Positions 4,134 through 63,914 of a DNA stretch of 64,000 nt are shown here, one piece after another. Each line of letters begins with the position of its first letter. Position 1 is the stretch's first letter. This DNA comes from a bacterium (GTDB taxonomy: Bacteria > Pseudomonadota > Alphaproteobacteria > Acetobacterales > Acetobacteraceae). The position numbers and the translations under genes were made by a program. Under the pieces are notes generated by a model. It was not told the DNA's origin, did not search any database, and saw only the letters and a program-made list of their open reading frames with translations. The stretch lies in contig JAMFRO010000084.1 of NCBI GenBank assembly GCA_026224825.1, positions 62,001 to 126,000 of the forward strand. The letters run 5' to 3'.

Positions 4134-5890
4134 CGCGCGACCTTATACAGCACCCAGCCATCCGCATTGCTGCCCGCCGGGCTTAGCCACGCCGGCGGCG
4201 TGCCGGCCTCCAGCGCATCCCATAATGTGGTCTGCGGCAGGCCCTGCACCAGCACGTAACGCCCCGGCGCCGGGCAGAACAGCACGTAGTCTACGCCCGC
4301 TGCCTGGAATTCCGGTGGCACCGCTGCCCCGGGCGTAACGCGCCAGGCGGCTCGATTACGCAAAAACCCCGGCACGCCATGCTGGTATAGCGAGCCCACC
4401 GTCAGCACTTGGCTACGGTAGAGCAGCTCCGGCGTGTCCTCCACCTGGGCCAGCACCACCTGCCCCGAAGCCTGGCCCAGCAGCGGCGCGATCCGCCGCA
4501 GGTTGCAGCCTGGGTAGCTCCGCGCCGGGCCGGGCGCCGAGGCGGCGGCGGGGGATGGCCCCACCATGGAGGCCAGCACCGGCACCAGCAGCACCAGCAG
4601 CAGGGTAAAACTGCGCGCCGCACCGGCCAGCGCCGGCTTGGCCGCCAGCGCCGCACTCATCTCGCTCAGCGCCACCGGCAGCAGGGCTGCCCCCAGCAAC
4701 GTGGGGAAGCCGACGAACAGGACGAACTTCGCCCCCAGCCCCAGACAAACAAACCCACAAATAGCCACATAAAGCCACAACAGCCGGTGCCGCCGCGGCG
4801 CGCCCAGCATGGCGGCCGAGACCATCACCTGGAAATCCAGTTTTTGCGGCGCCAGCCCGCGCCACAAAGCATAGGCCACGGCACACAGGCCGGGGAGAAG
4901 AAACACCACCAGCGCCAGGCCCCGCACCGGACGCAGTTCGGTCATCACCCCGAAAAATGCCGCCGCCTGGTCCGGTGGCAAAACACCATACGGCCCCATG
5001 GCCACGCGCGGGAACACCGCGACCCAGCCCAGCAGCAGCACCCCCAGCAGCCCCAGCCCCGCCGGCCCGCGCCACCGGCCCTTCAGCCGCGGCAGCGCCG
5101 CCGTGCCGCCCAGCAGCAGAAACCCAAGTGTCAGATACACGTAGGAGAGCCGGTCCACCTCCGGCACGAGGTAGCCGCCGTCCGGCGGGTCCACAAAGAA
5201 GCCGAACACCAGCACATCGAAAAAACCCGCCGCCGTGGAGAGCAGCACGATGCCGTTGGGCCGCTGCCACCAGCGCAGCAGCAGTACCATGTAGGAGGCC
5301 AGCACGAAGGGCATGGTCTCCGGTGTCAGCCATATCGCAAACCCGCCGGAAACCCCGGCCAGAAACCCCATCCAGCGGTCATCGCGCCAGGCCCGCGCCA
5401 CGCATCCAGTGGTGAGCGCGATCATGGCCAGGAGCAGGATATGGTAACCCACCACCCCCGGCACGGCGACGGTGCAAAAACCCGGCAGCACGGCGGCGGC
5501 GGCGGCGGCGGCCCATAGATACCGCCTGGCCGCGAATGGTTCCGCGCCCCAGGCCAGCACCACGCCCAGAGACCCGATGCTAAGCGGCCCCAGCACCACC
5601 CCGGCCACGTACAGCGCCTTATGCCAGCCGATGAACAGCGCCAGCGGTGCCGCCATCAGCCACAGCAGAATATCCAGCAGACGCGACCATTCCACATACA
5701 CGCCCGCCCCGGAATCATCGCGCGCCACCCGCACCACCAGATGCCCGGCATGAATCCCCTGCTCGATGCGCAGCAGCCGCATATAGCTATCCGGGTCGTT
5801 GAGGCTGCCCGCCAGCACCGATGGCCATTCATGCGCGCCCTGAACAATGTTCAAGCCTGCCGCCAGCAGGAACAGCAGCAGATAATTCAA
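4130..5890 (-). CDS. Polytopic membrane protein resembling GT-C glycosyltransferases
   Basis: 586 residues with about 10-11 predicted membrane helices, then a soluble C-terminal ~130 residues. The first extracytoplasmic loop carries an acidic DPDSYMRLLRIEQG motif (from about residue 33), like the Asp-containing first loop of lipid-linked sugar transferases (GT-C/STT3/ArnT type). I base the GT-C idea on this and on topology only. The TTG start at 5890 overlaps the TGA of the upstream FMN protein (TTGA), so the two are probably one operon. A plain uncharacterised membrane protein is the alternative. Confidence 0.6.
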   Translation of the reverse strand: MNYLLLFLLAAGLNIVQGAHEWPSVLAGSLNDPDSYMRLLRIEQGIHAGHLVVRVARDDSGAGVYVEWSRLLDILLWLMAAPLALFIGWHKALYVAGVVLGPLSIGSLGVVLAWGAEPFAARRYLWAAAAAAAVLPGFCTVAVPGVVGYHILLLAMIALTTGCVARAWRDDRWMGFLAGVSGGFAIWLTPETMPFVLASYMVLLLRWWQRPNGIVLLSTAAGFFDVLVFGFFVDPPDGGYLVPEVDRLSYVYLTLGFLLLGGTAALPRLKGRWRGPAGLGLLGVLLLGWVAVFPRVAMGPYGVLPPDQAAAFFGVMTELRPVRGLALVVFLLPGLCAVAYALWRGLAPQKLDFQVMVSAAMLGAPRRHRLLWLYVAICGFVCLGLGAKFVLFVGFPTLLGAALLPVALSEMSAALAAKPALAGAARSFTLLLVLLVPVLASMVGPSPAAASAPGPARSYPGCNLRRIAPLLGQASGQVVLAQVEDTPELLYRSQVLTVGSLYQHGVPGFLRNRAAWRVTPGAAVPPEFQAAGVDYVLFCPAPGRYVLVQGLPQTTLWDALEAGTPPAWLSPAGSNADGWVLYKVAR

Positions 5891-10659: not shown

Positions 10660-12011
10660 TTCGCCACCCCCGGCAGCCAGATGGTGAACACCGTACCCTT
10701 GCCGATCTCGCTATCCACCACCAGCCGGCCGCGATGCCGGTTGACCACATGCTTCACGATCGCCAGCCCCAACCCGGTGCCGCCGACGCTGCGCGAACGC
10801 CCCTTGTCCACGCGGTAAAACCTCTCGGTGAGGCGCGGCAGATGCTCGCGCGCGATCCCCGCCCCGTCATCGGCCACGGACACCACCACCCCGCCGGGCT
10901 CGAAGCGCGGATCGGGTCCGGCGGAGGCGGTGAGTTTGATCTCGCCGCCGCGCTTGCCGTATTTCAAGGCGTTATCGAGCAAATTCGTAAACACCTGGGC
11001 GAGCTGGTCGGCATCGGCCGGGATGCGCGGCAGGGTTAGCGGCACGTCCATGCGCAGATGCACCTGCGCCTCTTTCAGCATCGGCTCCATGCCGGCGGCG
11101 ATGCGCTCGAACACCGGCGGCAGGAGCAAAATCTCCTTCGGCGGCGAATGCTCGGAAATCTCGATGCGCGACAGGGACAACAGATCCGCGATCACCCGCT
11201 GCATCCTTGCCGCCTGCTCGGCCATGATGCCGAGGAAGCGCTGTTGCGCCTCCGGATCATCCGCGGCGGGCCCGCGCAAAGTCTCGATGAAGCCGATCAG
11301 GCTGGCCAGCGGCGTGCGCAATTCATGGCTGGAATTGGCGACGAAATCGGCGCGCGTCTTCTCCAATGCGCGCTCGCGGGTGCGGTCGTTCACCAGCAGA
11401 TACACCGGCCCGCCCACAGGGATGATCGTCACCTCCAGGTCGCGCGCCATCGGGGCGGTAAGCACCATCTCACGGCGTACCGGCAGGCCGTGGGCTATGG
11501 CCTCGGCAAAGGCCGCGCGCACATCCGGGTGGCGCAGCAATGCCGCCGTCTCACCGCCGAAGGCGCTCACGGCACTATCGTTGCGCCACATGATCTTGCC
11601 TTCGCCATCCAGCTTCAGCAGCGGGTCCGGCAGGCGCTCCACAAGTGCCCTGTCCTCCGCCGCCAGCGCCTGGCCGCGTGTGCGGGCCAGGCGCTCGGCC
11701 TGCACCAGCCGCACCGCCTCCTCGCCCAAGGCCCGCATGCCCGGCACGAACAGGCCGGACACGCTGGGGAGCGCTTCCGGGTTGGTGCGCAGTGCGCGCA
11801 GCAACTGCGTCATCACCACCAGGTCGCGCCCCAAAGCCAGGCCGAACCCCGCCGCCACCACGCCGTATATGCCCCAGGCCAGCAGCGCATGGCCCGGGCC
11901 CAGCACCCCCAGCCCGGTAAGCGCGCCGAACATAACCGCCGGCAGCAACGCCAGCGCCAGAAAAAACGCGATGGCCGCGGGCACGGCTTTCTCGGGCAGG
12001 GTTTCGGGCAT
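10656..12011 (-). CDS. phoR: Sensor histidine kinase, PhoR type
   Basis: 451 residues. Two N-terminal membrane helices (about 10-60), a PAS-like region (about 130-215), then a HisKA domain with the phospho-acceptor in NSSHELRTPLASLIGF. The ATP domain follows, with an N-box (FTNLLDNALKYG) and G-boxes (DDGAGIARE, GGTGLGLAIVKH). ERFYRVDKGRSR is characteristic of PhoR, the phosphate-starvation kinase that works with PhoB. No response regulator, pst gene or phoU is beside it, so the PhoR assignment rests on the kinase core. Confidence 0.85.
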   Translation of the reverse strand: MPETLPEKAVPAAIAFFLALALLPAVMFGALTGLGVLGPGHALLAWGIYGVVAAGFGLALGRDLVVMTQLLRALRTNPEALPSVSGLFVPGMRALGEEAVRLVQAERLARTRGQALAAEDRALVERLPDPLLKLDGEGKIMWRNDSAVSAFGGETAALLRHPDVRAAFAEAIAHGLPVRREMVLTAPMARDLEVTIIPVGGPVYLLVNDRTRERALEKTRADFVANSSHELRTPLASLIGFIETLRGPAADDPEAQQRFLGIMAEQAARMQRVIADLLSLSRIEISEHSPPKEILLLPPVFERIAAGMEPMLKEAQVHLRMDVPLTLPRIPADADQLAQVFTNLLDNALKYGKRGGEIKLTASAGPDPRFEPGGVVVSVADDGAGIAREHLPRLTERFYRVDKGRSRSVGGTGLGLAIVKHVVNRHRGRLVVDSEIGKGTVFTIWLPGVAK

Positions 12012-12016
12012 GCTAC

Positions 12017-13327
12017 CTACGGCTGGTTAAAACTGGCGGGGGCGGGCGCGGAGATCACCGGCGCCCCGGCGGCGATGGAGAACACCGCCAGCCCGCGCTT
12101 CACGCTGCCATCCGGGTTCAGCACCACCAGCCCATCCGTACCGGTAAAGCCCGAAGGTGCGGTGAGCACGTTGCTGGTATAGCCACCGGATGCGCCAGCC
12201 ACCCGCGCCAGTGCCGTGGCATCGAACGCGACATCGGCAATGGCAGGGGCGGCGGCACCATAAGCCGCCTGGTATTTGGCCTGGAAGGCCTGCGCCGCCG
12301 CAGGGTCAGGTGCCGCATACAGCGCCCCCAGAAACACCGGCTGATGCGCCATATCCACCGCGATATTGGCCCAGGGGGCCGGGCCCAGAAACTGCACCTG
12401 CGGCGCTGAGACATCGTAATAGGGCAGGAAATTCGCAATCTCGGCCAAAGTGTTCTCATCGGTCTCGCCGATGAACAGCGCGTTGAAGCTGGGCGGCGGC
12501 ACCTGCTGGTGCTGCAAATCGCGCGCCTTGGCCCGCCCGGCCGGCGTGCCCTGAGCCTTGGCCGCCTTTATCTGGTCCATCAGCCCCTGGCCGCGATCGG
12601 CGAAGCCGGAGATCTGGTTCACCGCCTGGTTCACGCTATCAAACCCCGGCGAATAGAAGGCGATCTGCGGCGCCGGCTCGCTTAGGCTTTGCGTCTCGGC
12701 GGTAATGGCATCGCTCAAATGATGCCCGAACTGATTATCCGGCAACAGCGCCGCCAATTGCGTGCGCCCGGCGTCGGACGCCACCTGCAACACGCGCTGC
12801 ACGGATTGCGTGGGCGTGATGCCGAGCGGCCATACGCCCGGCTGCGCCAGCGTGGCGTCGTTGGTGAACGGCAGCATGTTCACCCCGGCCGCCTTGGCCA
12901 GCGGCACCACGGCCTGCGTCTCCGCCGAGGTGAGCGGGCCGATGATGATACCATCCCCCGCCGCAATGCCCGCCTGTGCCGCCGCGGCGGCACCGCCTGG
13001 ATTACCGCCGGTGTCACGAATATCGATACTCTGTGAAATACCGGCGGGTGCAGCCAGCTTCACCGCATTCTGCAGCGCAGCGCCCACCGGCGCCAGCGGC
13101 CCGGTAAGCGGCAAGAGGACCAAAATATTGCCGCTGGTTTTGCCGTAGCCGCCAGGGCTGTAAGGCACCGGGTGGATGGGGGCTGTCGGGGTCAGCCCTT
13201 CCGGCAAGCCTGGGTTCAACGATGGCGACAGCACTTGACCTGAGCAGCCGGCAAGCGCCAGCGTGCTGCTTAGAATCAGGTATGAACGCAGATATGAACG
13301 AAGACCCGGCCGGCACGCAGCAACCAT
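12017..13327 (-). CDS. LppC/LpoA-type lipoprotein (penicillin-binding protein activator, type I periplasmic-binding fold)
   Basis: 436 residues from ATG at 13327, which follows GGGAGGG. A signal peptide ends in the lipobox ALAGC (Cys ~28), so the protein is lipid-anchored. The body is a two-lobed amino-acid-receptor-like domain (ILVLLPLTGPLAPVG, DTGGNPGGAAAAAQAG, GPLTSAETQAVVPLA, LLPDNQFG). In proteobacteria this gene sits divergent to rsmI and its product activates peptidoglycan synthases. The same layout is seen here, with the two 5' ends overlapping by 46 bp. Confidence 0.82.
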   Translation of the reverse strand: MVAACRPGLRSYLRSYLILSSTLALAGCSGQVLSPSLNPGLPEGLTPTAPIHPVPYSPGGYGKTSGNILVLLPLTGPLAPVGAALQNAVKLAAPAGISQSIDIRDTGGNPGGAAAAAQAGIAAGDGIIIGPLTSAETQAVVPLAKAAGVNMLPFTNDATLAQPGVWPLGITPTQSVQRVLQVASDAGRTQLAALLPDNQFGHHLSDAITAETQSLSEPAPQIAFYSPGFDSVNQAVNQISGFADRGQGLMDQIKAAKAQGTPAGRAKARDLQHQQVPPPSFNALFIGETDENTLAEIANFLPYYDVSAPQVQFLGPAPWANIAVDMAHQPVFLGALYAAPDPAAAQAFQAKYQAAYGAAAPAIADVAFDATALARVAGASGGYTSNVLTAPSGFTGTDGLVVLNPDGSVKRGLAVFSIAAGAPVISAPAPASFNQP

Positions 13328-14199
13328 CACAACAGCCCTCCCCTGCCGCAAATTCGCCGGCATTGCCCGCTCTTGTGCTGGTTTCCACCCCAATCGGCAA
13401 CCTTCAAGATTTTTCCCCCCGCGCCGTCCAAGCTCTATCCGGGGCGGACGTGGTTTTGTGTGAAGATACGCGGACGAGTGCCACGTTGCTGCGCGCCCAT
13501 GGCATAGCGACTCGCACCCAGGCGCTGCACGAGCATAACGAGCAATCGCGCATCGCCGGGCTTATCGACTCGATGCTGAAGGGCGCGCGTTACGCCCTGA
13601 TCTCGGATGCCGGCACGCCGCTGGTGTCCGACCCCGGCTACCGGCTGGTGCGCGCCGCCATAGAGGCCGGGTTGAACATCTCCGGCATCCCCGGCCCCAA
13701 TGCCGCACTGCTCGCCCTCACCCTCTCCGGCCTGCCGCCGCACCCTTTCATGTTCACCGGGTTTTTGCCGCCCAAATCCGGCGCCCGCCAGGCAGCACTG
13801 CAAATCCTGCGCGCAGCGGAAATGGCCGGGCTCTCCACCACACATATATTCTACGAAGCCCCGCACCGCCTGGCTGAGTTTCTGGCCGATGCCGCCGCCG
13901 TGCTCGGCCCCCGCCCCGCCGCCGTGTGCCGTGAGCTGACCAAGCATTTTGAGGAAGTCCGCCGCGCCCCGCTGGATGAACTGGCGGCGCATTACGCCAC
14001 CAACCAGGCGCGCGGCGAGATATGCATCGTCATCGCTCCCGCTGCGGCCGAGGCCACCACGGCCGAAGACCTCGACACGGCTTTGCGGACGGCGCTGGCC
14101 AGCATGAGCGTCAAAGACGCCGCCGCAGCCGTCGCCACCGCCACCGGCCTGCCGCGTAAATCCGTGTATCAGCGCGCGTTGGCGCTTGGCCGGGAATGA
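13282..14199 (+). CDS. rsmI: 16S rRNA (cytidine1402-2'-O)-methyltransferase
   Basis: 305 residues from ATG at 13282; another ATG four codons later and a GTG at 13222 are alternatives. RsmI methylates C1402 of 16S rRNA using SAM. Tetrapyrrole-methylase-fold signatures are VSTPIGNLQDFSPRA, LCEDTRTSATLL, LISDAGTPLVSDPGYRLV and GIPGPNAALLALTLSGL. The ~35 residues before VSTPIGN are an extra Pro/Gln-rich leader. The usual downstream partner yraN is not present; an AT-rich gap follows. Confidence 0.95.
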   Translation: MNADMNEDPAGTQQPSQQPSPAANSPALPALVLVSTPIGNLQDFSPRAVQALSGADVVLCEDTRTSATLLRAHGIATRTQALHEHNEQSRIAGLIDSMLKGARYALISDAGTPLVSDPGYRLVRAAIEAGLNISGIPGPNAALLALTLSGLPPHPFMFTGFLPPKSGARQAALQILRAAEMAGLSTTHIFYEAPHRLAEFLADAAAVLGPRPAAVCRELTKHFEEVRRAPLDELAAHYATNQARGEICIVIAPAAAEATTAEDLDTALRTALASMSVKDAAAAVATATGLPRKSVYQRALALGRE

Positions 14200-14681
14200 A
14201 ATAGCGGCAGGTAATTTGCCGGAATTGAACCTTATCATCCTGGAATGAATGAAGGCACCGGCAAAGCGGTATCATTGCCTTTGAAGATTGAATTGCTTTT
14301 TTGCAATAAATAAACCTTGCCTTTACGTTATAACCAAATCAAAAAACACCCCGGTACCGTAATGTTAATCTTTTTTGAGATGCTCCGCGAATAAACCGGT
14401 AGTTGCGTCTCGGAATAAATAAAAATGCCGTCAGCTTGAACATTCCGGCCAGAGAAGACCGACGCCTAACGACGATTATGAAAAATACTGCATATATTGT
14501 AGCAGATTAGGTTGTTAACCAAGCTTAATTAACGCTTGTGCAAAATATTGCCTATCAGTGTTCTCAGTATATCGAACAACGTAAGATAGACGGACCGGCC
14601 CGGTCCAAGGCTAAATTATCCACGATTTTCACATGAAAATCCGGAAAGTAAATCGGCGACCTAAAATTCCCGGAGCAAACG
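14200..14681. other. AT-rich intergenic region upstream of the Hint-domain gene
   Basis: About 480 bp with no convincing gene. It is far richer in A/T than the surrounding sequence (runs such as GCAATAAATAAACC and GTTAACCAAGCTTAATTAA). It holds a weak hairpin with a T6 loop (14292-14307) just after rsmI, and a GGACCG/CGGTCC inverted repeat (14592-14606) nearer the next gene. I cannot fix a promoter. Such islands often bind xenogeneic silencers or long-range regulators, which would suit a surface or secreted protein gene. Confidence 0.55.
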
Positions 14682-16959: not shown

Positions 16960-17054
16960 GGGTTCGCCTCCAACGTGCACATGCTCTTGATCGCGTGATA
17001 GACTCTATGCCACCACCCTCGGTGAGATACGATAGACCTACGGAGATAGAACCC

Positions 17055-17897
17055 ATGCCGGACACAGAAGCCCAGATCACCCTGCCGCGTGGCACGCTGA
17101 TGGCCGGTAAGCGCGGGCTCATCATGGGTGTCGCCAATAACCGCTCCATCGCCTGGGCCATCGCCCAGTCCATAGCGGCGCAAGGGGCGGAAATCGCCTT
17201 CACCTACCAGGGCGAGGCGCTGGAAAAGCGAGTCCGCCCGCTGGCCACCTCCATCGGCTCCGATTTTTTGCTCCCCTGCGACGTGTCCGACGACGCCGCC
17301 ATGGACACCGCCTTCGCCGCGCTGAAGGAAAAATGGGGCAAGATCGACTTCCTGGTGCACGCCATCGGCTTCGCGGACAAAAACTTTCTGCGCGGGCGCT
17401 TCGTCGACACCCCGCGCGAGGCCTTTCTGCAAGCCCTTGATATCTCCTGCTTCTCCTTCGCCGCCGTAGGCCGCCGCGCCGCCGCGATGATGCCGGATGG
17501 CGGCTCGCTGCTGACGCTATCCTACCTCGGCGCCGAGCGCTGGGTGCCGCATTACAACGTGATGGGCGTGGCCAAGGCCGCACTGGAAGCCAGCGTGCGC
17601 TACATGGCCGCCGACCTCGGGCCGGACAACATCCGCGTCAACGCCATCTCCGCCGGGCCTATCAAAACCCTGGCCGCCAGCGGCATCGGTGATTTCAGCT
17701 ACATCCTCAAATGGAACAAGTATAACTCCCCGCTCCGCCGCAACGTCGAGCTGGAAGAAGTCGGCGGCGCCGGGCTGTACATGCTCTCCGACCTCTCCAG
17801 AGGTGTGACCGGCGAAATCCACCACGTGGACTGCGGCTACAACATCAACGGCATGAAAAACCCGGATGCGCCGGATTTGACGCTAGCACCGGAGTAA
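17055..17897 (+). CDS. fabI: Enoyl-[acyl-carrier-protein] reductase (NADH), FabI type
   Basis: 280 residues from ATG at 17055. FabI performs the last reduction in each round of fatty acid synthesis. It has GVANNRSIAWAIA as nucleotide-binding loop and YNVMGVAK as the Y-x6-K active-site pair, followed by the typical RVNAISAGPIKTLAASGI. A 20-residue upstream extension to an ATG at 16995 exists but carries no homology. Its TAA lies in the first A-tract of cloverleaf repeat copy 1. Confidence 0.95.
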   Translation: MPDTEAQITLPRGTLMAGKRGLIMGVANNRSIAWAIAQSIAAQGAEIAFTYQGEALEKRVRPLATSIGSDFLLPCDVSDDAAMDTAFAALKEKWGKIDFLVHAIGFADKNFLRGRFVDTPREAFLQALDISCFSFAAVGRRAAAMMPDGGSLLTLSYLGAERWVPHYNVMGVAKAALEASVRYMAADLGPDNIRVNAISAGPIKTLAASGIGDFSYILKWNKYNSPLRRNVELEEVGGAGLYMLSDLSRGVTGEIHHVDCGYNINGMKNPDAPDLTLAPE

Positions 17898-18091
17898 AAA
17901 GGCCAGGGCTCTGCCCTGGACCCGCCAAGGGCCGAAAGGCCCTTGGATCCCGTAACTTAAGAATTGAAAAGGGCCCTGCCTCCATGCTGTTAAAACAGCG
18001 AGGTGGCAGGGCCCTTTTCAATTCTCAAAAGCTAATGGGGGTCTGGGGCCTCCAGGCCCCAGCTGGTCCAGGGCAGAGCCCTGGCCTTTTT
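17896..18091. repeat. Composite cloverleaf palindrome, copy 1
   Basis: A perfect 27-bp outer stem (17896-17922 with 18065-18091) begins with A5 and ends with T5. It closes three hairpins. A is 17925-17946, CCAAGGGCC with a GAAA tetraloop. B is a central 20-bp palindrome (17961-17980 with 18005-18024) plus an inner GCTGTT/AACAGC hairpin. C is 18044-18061, TGGGGCCT/AGGCCCCA. On either strand the outer stem ends in a T-tract, so it can act as a two-way terminator between fabI and the TonB-C gene. The outer parts recur at 49444 and 63713. Confidence 0.9.
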
Positions 18092-18110
18092 CCTGCCTAA
18101 CCCCGACGGG

Positions 18111-18479
18111 CTAATGGATCGTCCACACATATCTGATCGTCGTCCATGCCTCTTTCGGCTTTCCGTCAGGATCCGAGGCTGGCCTGAATTCGCACGTGCT
18201 CAAAGCCTGAATTGCTGCCTGGTCTAGTATTGGATAGCCACTGGATTGCATCACCTCCGATTGCTTGACCGAACCATCCGCACCGATAAGAAAACCAGTC
18301 ACCGTCGTCCCCTGAAGCCCCTGCTGCAGGGCAGAAGGCGGATATTGGGGCACACATCTGCTGCCCGCGGGGATCTCTTCCCTGATGAGGCCATTGCTGG
18401 ATTGTTGCGGCGTGGCACAGGCGCCAACGAGTAGCACGCCCGCAAACAAAAGAACCCGGCCGACCCAACCATATTTCAT
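18111..18479 (-). CDS. Lipoprotein with a TonB C-terminal domain
   Basis: 122 residues from ATG at 18479; the open frame further upstream runs into aroC leader sequence. A signal peptide ends in the lipobox LLVGAC, so the mature protein is lipid-anchored. The rest is a TonB-C fold: [31 protein letters not shown], then [17 protein letters not shown] and a final YVWTIH. True TonB has an N-terminal membrane anchor and a Pro-rich spacer; here the domain stands alone, so it is not an ordinary energy transducer. Two Cys in the mature domain may pair. Confidence 0.8.
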
Positions 18480-18609
18480 TATCAATCCTATCGAACCAGT
18501 AGATAAAACGTTCCGGGCTCTCGTAAACCAATCCGGTTTGCGAAACAATCATGCCCGGCGGCTGCATCCAACTCTGGCCATCGGCCGAAAACCAGCTTAT
18601 CCCCGGCCC

Positions 18610-48628: not shown

Positions 48629-49414
48629 ATGCAGGCAAGGCTCGTCACCATGCGCGCGCATAGCGCGGAAGAAATGCCACTCGCCGCCGGGGCGCATTGC
48701 AGCGACGGCTGGTCCGTCACCTCGCCCTGGCATTATCACGACATGCACCAACTGCTTTACGCCTTCGATGGCGCGGTGGAGGTGGAAGGGCTGCAGGGGC
48801 ATTACAAAGTGCCGCGCCAGTTCGCGGTGTGGATCCCGGCTGGCGCCGTGCACCGCACCAGCATCCAGCGCATCCCCTCCGGCTCAGTGTTTCTCAGCCC
48901 GCAACTGCTGCCCTGCGCCATGGCGGCACCGCGCGTCATCGCCGCACCCGCACTGCTGCGCGAGATGGTGATGCACGCCATGCGCTGGCCGCTGGACCGC
49001 GCGGCAGATGAGATGAGCGAAGCCTATTTCACCTGCTTCGCCCGGCTGTGCGAGGAATGGATCGCCGAGAGCGTCAACCTGCTCCTGCCCTCCAGCACCG
49101 ATGCGCGCATGGCCGCCATCATGGCACATACGGAACAGAATATCGCGACGGTAACGCTGGCCGATGTCTGCCGCGAAGCGCATATGACAGGGCGCACCCT
49201 GCGCCGGCATTTTCACAAAGCCGCAGGCATAAGCTGGGAGGAATACCGGCAGCGCCTGCGCATCTGCCTGGCGCTGGAAGCACTGGACAGCACAACAAAC
49301 CCCATCGGCGAAATCGCCGCGACCCTGGGCTACGAAAACCCAGCCGCCTTCGCCCGCGCCTTCCGCAGCACCACAGGCCTAGCCCCGCGCGACTACCGGA
49401 AGACCGGGGGGTGA
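48629..49414 (+). CDS. AraC-family transcriptional regulator
   Basis: 261 residues from ATG at 48629; the frame is open 28 codons further up. The N-terminal cupin-like domain (SPWHYHDMHQLLYAFDGAVEVEG, VWIPAGAVHRT) is followed by two C-terminal HTH units (VTLADVCREAHMTGRTLRRHFHKAAG and IGEIAATLGYENPAAFARAFR, ending APRDYRK). It may control the divergent methyltransferase gene. The final codons and TGA lie inside the outer arm of palindrome copy 2. Confidence 0.87.
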   Translation: MQARLVTMRAHSAEEMPLAAGAHCSDGWSVTSPWHYHDMHQLLYAFDGAVEVEGLQGHYKVPRQFAVWIPAGAVHRTSIQRIPSGSVFLSPQLLPCAMAAPRVIAAPALLREMVMHAMRWPLDRAADEMSEAYFTCFARLCEEWIAESVNLLLPSSTDARMAAIMAHTEQNIATVTLADVCREAHMTGRTLRRHFHKAAGISWEEYRQRLRICLALEALDSTTNPIGEIAATLGYENPAAFARAFRSTTGLAPRDYRKTGG

Positions 49415-49703
49415 CTTGTCCTGGGGGCGGGGATGTTCCACGGAAAAGGCCAGGGCTCTGCCGTCGTGCGCAGCACGCCTCCGGCGTGACGACCCGCCAA
49501 GGGCCGAAAGGCCCTTGGATCCCACCCGGGTCTTGGAAAGGGATGCCCTCGAGATCACGTAGTGGGACAGCCCGTGCAGGGCATCCCTTTCCAAGACCCG
49601 AAGTAGTGGGGGTCTGGGGCCTCAGGCCCCAGCGGGTCCAGGGCAGAGCCCTGGCCTTTTTTTCCGTGGAACACCCCCGCCCCAAGGACAAGTCACCCCC
49701 CGG
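49404..49703. repeat. Composite cloverleaf palindrome, copy 2, with extended outer arms
   Basis: The shell is 49444-49663: outer stem 49448-49462 with 49642-49656, hairpin A with GAAA loop (49497-49518), central 23-bp palindrome (49527-49549 with 49578-49600), hairpin C (49615-49631). It differs from copy 1 by a ~30-nt hairpin insert in the left arm (49463-49493, CACGCC/GGCGTG). The arms continue outside the shell for ~40 bp (49404-49443 with 49664-49703) with three or so mismatches. The left arm contains the AraC stop codon. This fills the whole ~330-bp gap before the DUF445 gene. Confidence 0.9.
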
Positions 49704-49740
49704 CTTGCGCCGCCACGGGGGTGGGTCCTAGTCTTCGGGC

Positions 49741-63714: not shown

Positions 63715-63914
63715 AAAGGCTGGGGCTCCGCCCCTGACCCCTAGACTTTAAGGATATGAGAGAGGGGCTATGCGCCCCCACGGACCGTGAACAATGTTCA
63801 CGGTCCGTGGGGGCGCATAGCCCCTCTCTCATATCCTTTTAAAAGCTAATGGGGGTCCGGGGCCTCAGGCCCCGGCGGGTCCAGGGCGGAGCCCTGGCCT
63901 TTTTACTTAACCAC
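63703..63914. repeat. Composite cloverleaf palindrome, copy 3, with an 89-nt perfect core
   Basis: Shell 63713-63904 has the same A5/T5-ended outer stem as copy 1, with a few left-arm mismatches; hairpin A is lost. The core 63750-63838 is a perfect palindrome with 44-bp arms around one A at 63794, so it can extrude as a cruciform. Hairpin C is CCGGGGCC-TCA-GGCCCCGG (63857-63875). Terminal pairing extends to 63703 and 63914 and takes in the stop codons of both flanking genes. Confidence 0.93.

Follow-up and report, generated by a model that had tools for sequence, protein, structure and literature searches.

The kinds of bacterial repeat closest to the element described here are the BIME/REP and BOX mosaics. 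BIMEs are mosaics of opposed extragenic hairpins (REPs) that occur in high copy and have been linked to termination (PMC2817692; this and the other sources are cited from partial text). BOX of Streptococcus pneumoniae and S. suis has flanking modules around a variable centre, strong secondary structure and a habit of inserting into other repeats and receiving them, and in S. suis alternative outer pairs surround the same boxB (PMC3049150). SPRITE of the pneumococcus is a dispersed terminator-like repeat near gene 3' ends (PMC3049150), and the rhizobial RIME and AB, C palindromes, which we liken to our element by description, are alphaproteobacterial intergenic palindromic repeats (PMC2573895). 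A variable centre (BOX), opposed hairpins (BIME) and terminator-like repeats (SPRITE) are already known (PMC3049150, PMC2817692). In the open PMC literature searched we found no description of the present element, of nested palindromes of its type or of counterparts in Acetobacteraceae or Acidocella, nor of nested palindromes with locus-specific palindromic flanks and family-level core exchange at orthologous terminators.

We analysed a 64-kb stretch (the window; C22:62001-126000 of G000) of an Acidocella-like genome, the host, which contains three copies of an element with a shell of hairpin modules around a central palindrome. The original prediction held this arrangement to be unlike the usual REP or MITE layout; it is less unprecedented than that, since BOX, too, has flanking modules around a variable centre (PMC3049150), a likeness of layout only that we draw by description. 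Unlike BOX, in which boxB can be absent or multiple and folds largely apart from its flanks, the Acidocella-like element has one long central palindrome of one of several families, and the partial text of the source describes BOX without confinement to gene ends (PMC3049150). With REP/BIMEs it shares high-copy short extragenic palindromes in opposite orientation, and it differs from them in that no RAYT was found in the host with PF01797, in being nested rather than tandemly alternating and in its locus-specific palindromic flanks. SPRITE consists of one hairpin and a T-rich tract, with no modular or nested form described in that partial text (PMC3049150). The reading that we favour, and hold to be probable without being secure, is of an oversized intrinsic terminator that works in both directions and is composed of palindromes nested in one another, with insides that would be exchanged by recombination between copies and arms that would be kept perfect by template switching.

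Layout and distribution of a modular family

Copy 1 (Table 1) lies directly behind a gene whose product we take to be a fabI-like enoyl-ACP reductase; the best two matches to this protein in named records share 90% and 91% identity with it, the second being labelled Acidocella sp. The stop codon of this gene, TAA (17895–17897), is completed by the first two bases of the A-tract and starts 6 bases ahead of module A. Module A (CCAGGGC TCT GCCCTGG) is a hairpin by itself, as are B, with its GAAA loop, and C, and all three have a GGG-type head on the side facing the core. The predicted fold of copy 1 (RNA parameters) is a four-way junction in which the core and hairpins B and C meet an outer stem of 27 bp, at −156.7 kcal/mol compared to −78.9 ± 4.8 in 200 shuffles (z −16.1). 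Fold and direct base reading thus both agree with the junction and perfect outer stem first proposed, and the 27 complementary terminal bases constitute terminal inverted repeats such as a MITE has. Since both outer arms (A) form hairpins of their own, two local hairpins are an alternative fold to this stem. An Rfam search returned 14 matches (E up to 1), all under their gathering scores, with microRNA hairpin models the best of them. The shell halves are common to copies 1, 2 and 3, whose cores were the only inverted repeats scoring at least 16 in the window, and three mononucleotide shuffles contained none.

Table 1. Positions of the three copies in the window, their parts and the genes next to copy 1.
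Feature	Position	Strand	Remarks
Copy 1, whole element	17894-18092		Order AAAAA - A - B - core - C - A' - TTTTT
A-tract, left edge of copy 1	17896..17900	.	T-tract when read on the minus strand
Module A (GGCCAGGGCTCTGCCCTGGACCC), copy 1	17901..17923	.	Hairpin 17903-17919 gives the minus-strand terminator score
Module B, copy 1	17925..17946	.	Hairpin, GAAA loop
Core palindrome, family I, copy 1	17960..18025	.	
Module C hairpin, copy 1	18043..18062	.	GGGGGT head ahead of the hairpin
Module A', copy 1	18068..18091	+	Hairpin 18068-18084, then CCTTTTT; plus-strand terminator score
fabI-like gene (presumed enoyl-ACP reductase)	16995..17897	+	3' end at copy 1
ORF converging on copy 1	18111..18548	-	Distance from its end to A' (right edge), 25 bases
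Copy 2	49448..49656	.	Palindrome X (about 49463-49491) in the tip of A
Copy 2, inner parts	B 49497-49518; core II 49527-49600; C 49614-49632; A' 49638-49654		
Copy 2, left flank arm	49397..49447	.	Pairs with 49657-49709, 47/54 aligned positions complementary
Copy 2, right flank arm	49657..49709	.	
Copy 3	63718..63899	.	A variant, B absent, core IV 63750-63838
Copy 3, right half	C 63857-63875; A' 63881-63897		
Copy 3, flanks			Complementary pair GTGGTTAAGTAAAAA / TTTTTACTTAACCAC

The element of copy 1 is a member of a dispersed family, of which the three copies first counted are a small part. The exact B module had 97 matches in the host (G000), 35 in its congener G014 and 9 across 36 other congeners (four in G050, three in G007, two in G020), with none for the reversed-pattern control. 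With up to one mismatch allowed, the C-hairpin pattern had 104 matches in the host, compared to one for its reversed-pattern control, 60 in G014 and 0–5 in each of the 36 other genus genomes; with at most two mismatches, the host had 142 and the control 23. Some copies carry C twice, and the B and C counts refer to the host-type version of the sequence. Diverged-shell elements were seen in G007 (L116, with a textbook two-way terminator hairpin as its core), G020 (L113), G021 (L112) and G014 (L215), and those of the same layout in G007 and G020 indicate that the layout predates the host and G014 excess.

From 80 host stretches around copies, together with the window, a general layout emerged: hairpin A, a B or C hairpin, a long core palindrome, C or B, and A'. 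Among the 114 module clusters with both directions represented (71 + 11 in the host, 32 in G014), heads pointed inward in 113, the exception being L078; the remaining 42 of 156 clusters were one-directional, owing to contig ends, half-shells or the strict pattern, and fall outside this count. Neither of the two outcomes that were to count against a modular family, a single invariant sequence or no further copies, was found. The copies vary in sequence, and the shell, originally thought constant, is modular: B and C trade sides or C stands on both, copy 3 has no left B, an additional palindrome X can occupy the tip of A or of C, and the whole can shrink to a lone hairpin A. Coreless half-shells (C> A> only) were observed in four genus genomes, namely at L032 (about 1561–1608) in the host, at L199 (6411–6458) in G014, which is the same locus and in both adjoins a gene presumably encoding a small GIY-YIG nuclease-like protein, at L114 in G019 and at L115 in G009. 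No gene lay between two shell halves in the three internal host half-shells (L032, L062, L079), of which L062 has an ordinary terminator in the core's place. When cores outside a shell were looked for, 9/9 further internal core sites, all beyond the earlier stretches, lay in shells.

Host draft contigs often start inside an element (C3, C17, C18, C22, C25, C28, C33, C39, C42, C46, C49, C51, C58 and C89), so that the draft assembly breaks at this family and copy counts near contig ends are uncertain; among the places listed for C-pattern matches with at most two mismatches, 14 lie within 200 bases of the contig's first base. Such a pattern is what an assembly artefact, through inverted chimeras or collapsed repeats, might leave, an explanation made extremely improbable by separate assemblies (G014, G050, G021 and an Acidocella MAG at fabI) that show such elements at gene ends, each set between unique genes.

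Gene ends and terminator-like sequence on both strands

Of 66 copies in which A was recognised at each end, three were too near a contig end, and 11 of the 77 palindromes found in the host stretches, without a recognised A pair, lay outside the test; in the remaining 63 copies, we determined whether a long ORF (at least 100 codons, or 60 when the stretch end cuts the frame) ended within 60 bases of A. This was so on at least one side in 63/63 and on both sides in 43/63, as against 23.2% on at least one side among 1015 random placements in the same sources (both sides 3.0%, one 20.2%, none 76.8%). A cruder call of neighbouring gene directions from codon usage gave 42 convergent, 24 tandem and one divergent among 67 copies; 37 of these calls were confident (21, 15 and one respectively).

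In copy 1, a terminator scan picked A' with CCTTTTT on the plus strand and A with TTTTT on the minus strand, and A/T-tract edges are present in the sequence of other copies too. As in bidirectional terminators, a G+C-rich hairpin and T-tract on both strands, scored in copy 1, here go with a position just past stop codons. Among the functions considered in the original prediction, a two-way terminator is well supported by this combination of gene-end position and terminator-like sequence, and putative two-way termination is the best-supported function, with the core and B/C looking like passengers within the terminator.

A rival reading is a REP/BIME-type nonautonomous element, formerly mobilised by a RAYT (a single-strand Y1 tyrosine transposase) that this genome has since lost, in which A, B and C would be REPs and the whole a compound BIME. 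The high-copy, short extragenic hairpins are oppositely oriented around a centre, with inward GGG(R)T heads, and in excess in two species of the genus, and REPs have been linked to termination (PMC2817692); set against this, the modules form nested layers, 63/63 tested copies are at gene ends, and the PF01797 profile had no match in the host genome in a search that was positive in 5/14 control genomes, so that the RAYT-like partner once envisaged was not found. We regard this origin as quite unlikely and prefer the nested terminator described above.

Core families, arms and flanks

The palindrome search of the host stretches yielded 77 long palindromes, one of which (L047, at 2799) is an unrelated repeat. 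This separate palindromic repeat, GTCATTGCGAGCG...CGCAATGAC, was also seen in G014 (L208, at 4363 and 12613). Clustering of these 77 with 54 palindromes from 40 G014 stretches, followed by merging of clusters by eye, gave four core families (I, clusters 1–4; II, cluster 5; III, clusters 6 and 7; IV, clusters 8–12 and 19; the others being unrelated repeats), with 34, 17 and 16 host-stretch members in families I, II and IV. Copy 1 has a core of family I, copy 2 one of family II and copy 3 one of family IV; their central palindromes, described at first as unrelated, do fall in different families but are not one-offs. Distinct family cores number 76 in the host and 40 in G014, after removal for the arm count of one G014 core that the overlapping L207 and L238 entered twice in the clustering and loop tables.

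Though arms differ between copies, 2303 of 2320 outer core pairs (99.3%) over these 116 distinct cores are Watson–Crick, with 7 G.T, 3 A.C and 7 other pairs, in a collection whose palindrome threshold favours perfect arms. Comparison of nearest distinct arms (44 links among 78) gave 63 two-sided (paired) versus 19 one-sided or mismatched changes; the 63 comprise 33 transitions and 30 of transversion type, the latter bridged by no G.U step. At three of the six orthologous same-family loci (L071, L091 and L099, with arms comparable without gaps), there were 11 two-sided and no one-sided changes, L112/L215 having been left out because of a one-base register shift. Two-sided changes could also arise if another copy took the place of the entire core.

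The paired changes across copies, together with the very strong predicted folding, raise the alternative that a transcribed RNA (a 3' UTR or small RNA) is under selection and accumulates ordinary compensatory mutations, exchange being secondary. We deem this very unlikely, given the scarcity of wobble intermediates among the 2320 pairs, the transversion-type share of the two-sided changes, flank arms that vary by locus and equal structure on both strands. Under the reading that we favour, DNA template switching would copy one arm onto the other and so keep the arms perfect. Template switching is described as homogenising inverted-repeat arms and inverting spacers, its marks being homogenised arms with paired changes, extended stems and inverted loops (PMC8604942, PMC8794818); in the partial text of these sources it is known for rRNA, other RNA hairpins and yeast genes, whereas here it would act on a dispersed repeat with arms of at least 20 bp. 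Against it, the loop inversion to be expected is rare in family II and mixed in family I: the minority orientation of loop relative to shell occurs in 1/18 family II cores with both sides called and in 20/50 of family I, counts that contain one duplicate core. Orientation of cores by their purine-rich arm was dropped, a palindrome being identical on both strands, and only that of loop versus shell is meaningful. Because core arms are purine-rich (mean 0.71 over 20 bases), we also considered intrastrand triplex motifs (PMC4666352, partial text).

Palindromy continues outside the shell. Flank complementarity had a median score of 18 for cognate and 5 for non-cognate pairs, and reached at least 15 in 44/66 cognate versus 2.5% of 4282 non-cognate pairs, copy 1, which in this respect speaks against our reading, being scarcely palindromic beyond its shell (score 5.5). 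These flank palindromes are locus-specific and some extend into coding-region ends (L100). At one single-A site 45/45 flank bases are paired on each side. The two species do not have the same outer arms at L302/L060, but within each the arms are largely complementary. The same template switching that would maintain the arms may lengthen the palindrome into the flanks.

Core exchange and single hairpins at fixed loci

Both flanks of a host copy could be located in one G014 stretch for 14 loci (flank identity 73–89%; 16 rows, as L051 appears twice and L073 and L074 map to one place), although G014 stretches were chosen for the C pattern, so that absence of the element is under-counted. The core was of the same family at six (L053, L071, L073/L074, L091, L099 and, by eye, L088, whose G014 core is below threshold) and of another at four, with alignments running across the element (host/G014: L038, IV/I; L051, III/I; L058, II/I; L094, IV/I). 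G014 had the outer hairpin only at two loci (L100, A alone; L084, A with X), and no core was found there at L055 or at L070, where the stretch is longer and different. The four different-family loci demonstrate core exchange at a fixed address and uphold the earlier suggestion that cores are swapped while their surroundings are kept. Among the rhizobial RIME/AB, C palindromes, no case of a core being exchanged within a terminator is known to us. L055/L209 was rejected as a clean empty site, G014 having no element in an intergenic stretch too diverged to polarise, and L065/L201 as a core swap, since its two flanks are on different G014 contigs, a rearrangement point kept out of the tally.

Other loci provided separate observations. 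One locus has a family IV core in G021 and G014 and a family I-like core in G020, upstream of a gene that we take to be leuC-like. L073 and L074 (G000:C8:4400–7400 and 11500–14500) are a stretch duplicated in opposite orientation about 7 kb apart, each with a family IV element and both matching one G014 place, and so represent a segmental inverted duplication. Where the host has copy 1, a named Acidocella MAG (L120) carries a short form that lacks the core, directly past the fabI stop. Just past the fabI stop of a Roseomonas (L133, about 4876–4960) are two G+C-rich hairpins with a GGGGTC head and T-tract, which resemble the right half in style, making a wider Acetobacteraceae root possible; the other 15 of the 16 further relatives inspected at this site had no element-like structure.

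Solo hairpins (AAGGC-A-GCCTT, at most one mismatch) number 18 in the host, seven in G014, two each in G050 and G018 and none in G021, G042 or G043. Three of six host solos fetched were comparable in G014, and all three stand opposite a full element (L297/L223, L299/L224, L301/L212). Among six G014 solos fetched, L302 is cleanly opposite the full host copy L060, and L292 could be matched on its right flank only; L292/L031 was discarded as a clean pair, with about 555 bases between the aligned left flank and the single A in G014. A further G014 solo faces a full host element (L217/L100), and two G050 solos face full elements, one in G014 (L290/L233) and one in the host (L294/L100). Single-versus-full pairs hence run in both directions, host single with G014 full and the reverse. 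The two genes around L100 enclose a full element in the host, a solo in both G014 and G050, and an ordinary hairpin in G041.

Where pairs are clean, each end of the full copy can be aligned with the solo hairpin, as would follow from an insertion that duplicates A and equally from a deletion between the A and A' hairpins. The first would be expected of a MITE-like element whose transposase targets terminator hairpins, insertion into a single A duplicating its 17 bases to give A and A'. A transposase of this kind is the main rival to recombination or template switching, though in our judgement an unlikely one: the 17-base overlap (L302 versus L003, L301 versus L212) and the single A of both G014 and G050 at L100, where the host's full state may be derived, agree with it, while a deletion that removes the inside would leave the identical pattern, pairs occur in both directions and the genome parts read contained no partner transposon with such ends.

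Host and G014 gene order breaks at family elements (L054, L109 and L065 versus L213, L201 and L225). G014 element L213 (7666–7854) sits between the right-flank orthologues of two host copies, L054 and L109, and host copy L065 has its left flank next to one G014 element and its right flank next to another, these two elements being on C120 and C16. The L213 and L065 rearrangement points fit recombination between copies, and to that extent speak for the recombination target that had been among the suggested roles.

In the nested-terminator reading that we prefer, hairpin A with its adjoining A/T-tract would stop RNA polymerase on each strand, with B, C and the core as further palindromic layers within it. 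Recombination or template switching among copies would swap or remove the insides, with the shared shell modules supplying the homology and a dedicated transposase not being needed; against this, the homology that shells share is short for efficient recombination. This reading concerns exchange and loss of the inside at fixed loci, at most of which gain and loss are not polarised; the family's first spread and the two-species excess would call for a gain process in addition. As a tentative possibility, the palindromes may be self-nesting without a transposase: the apex of one hairpin would be a landing place for another, via template switching primed by a hairpin or conversion between terminators over short homology, and by that process, too, the arms would be copied outward into the ends of adjacent genes.

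If the latter is true, self-nesting terminators would grow, swap insides and spread in one bacterial lineage, and would act as breakpoints of genome rearrangement. Very long palindromes can persist at many gene ends, and the family, of about 100 copies, offers a natural series in which a given locus holds, depending on the related species, a lone hairpin, the complete nested element or a different core. This series permits a direct test of how, in bacteria, long perfect palindromes come about, are kept perfect and trade parts, a matter that is mostly debated on the strength of RNA alignments, and of whether terminators, in place of a transposase, can provide the homology by which a repeat spreads.
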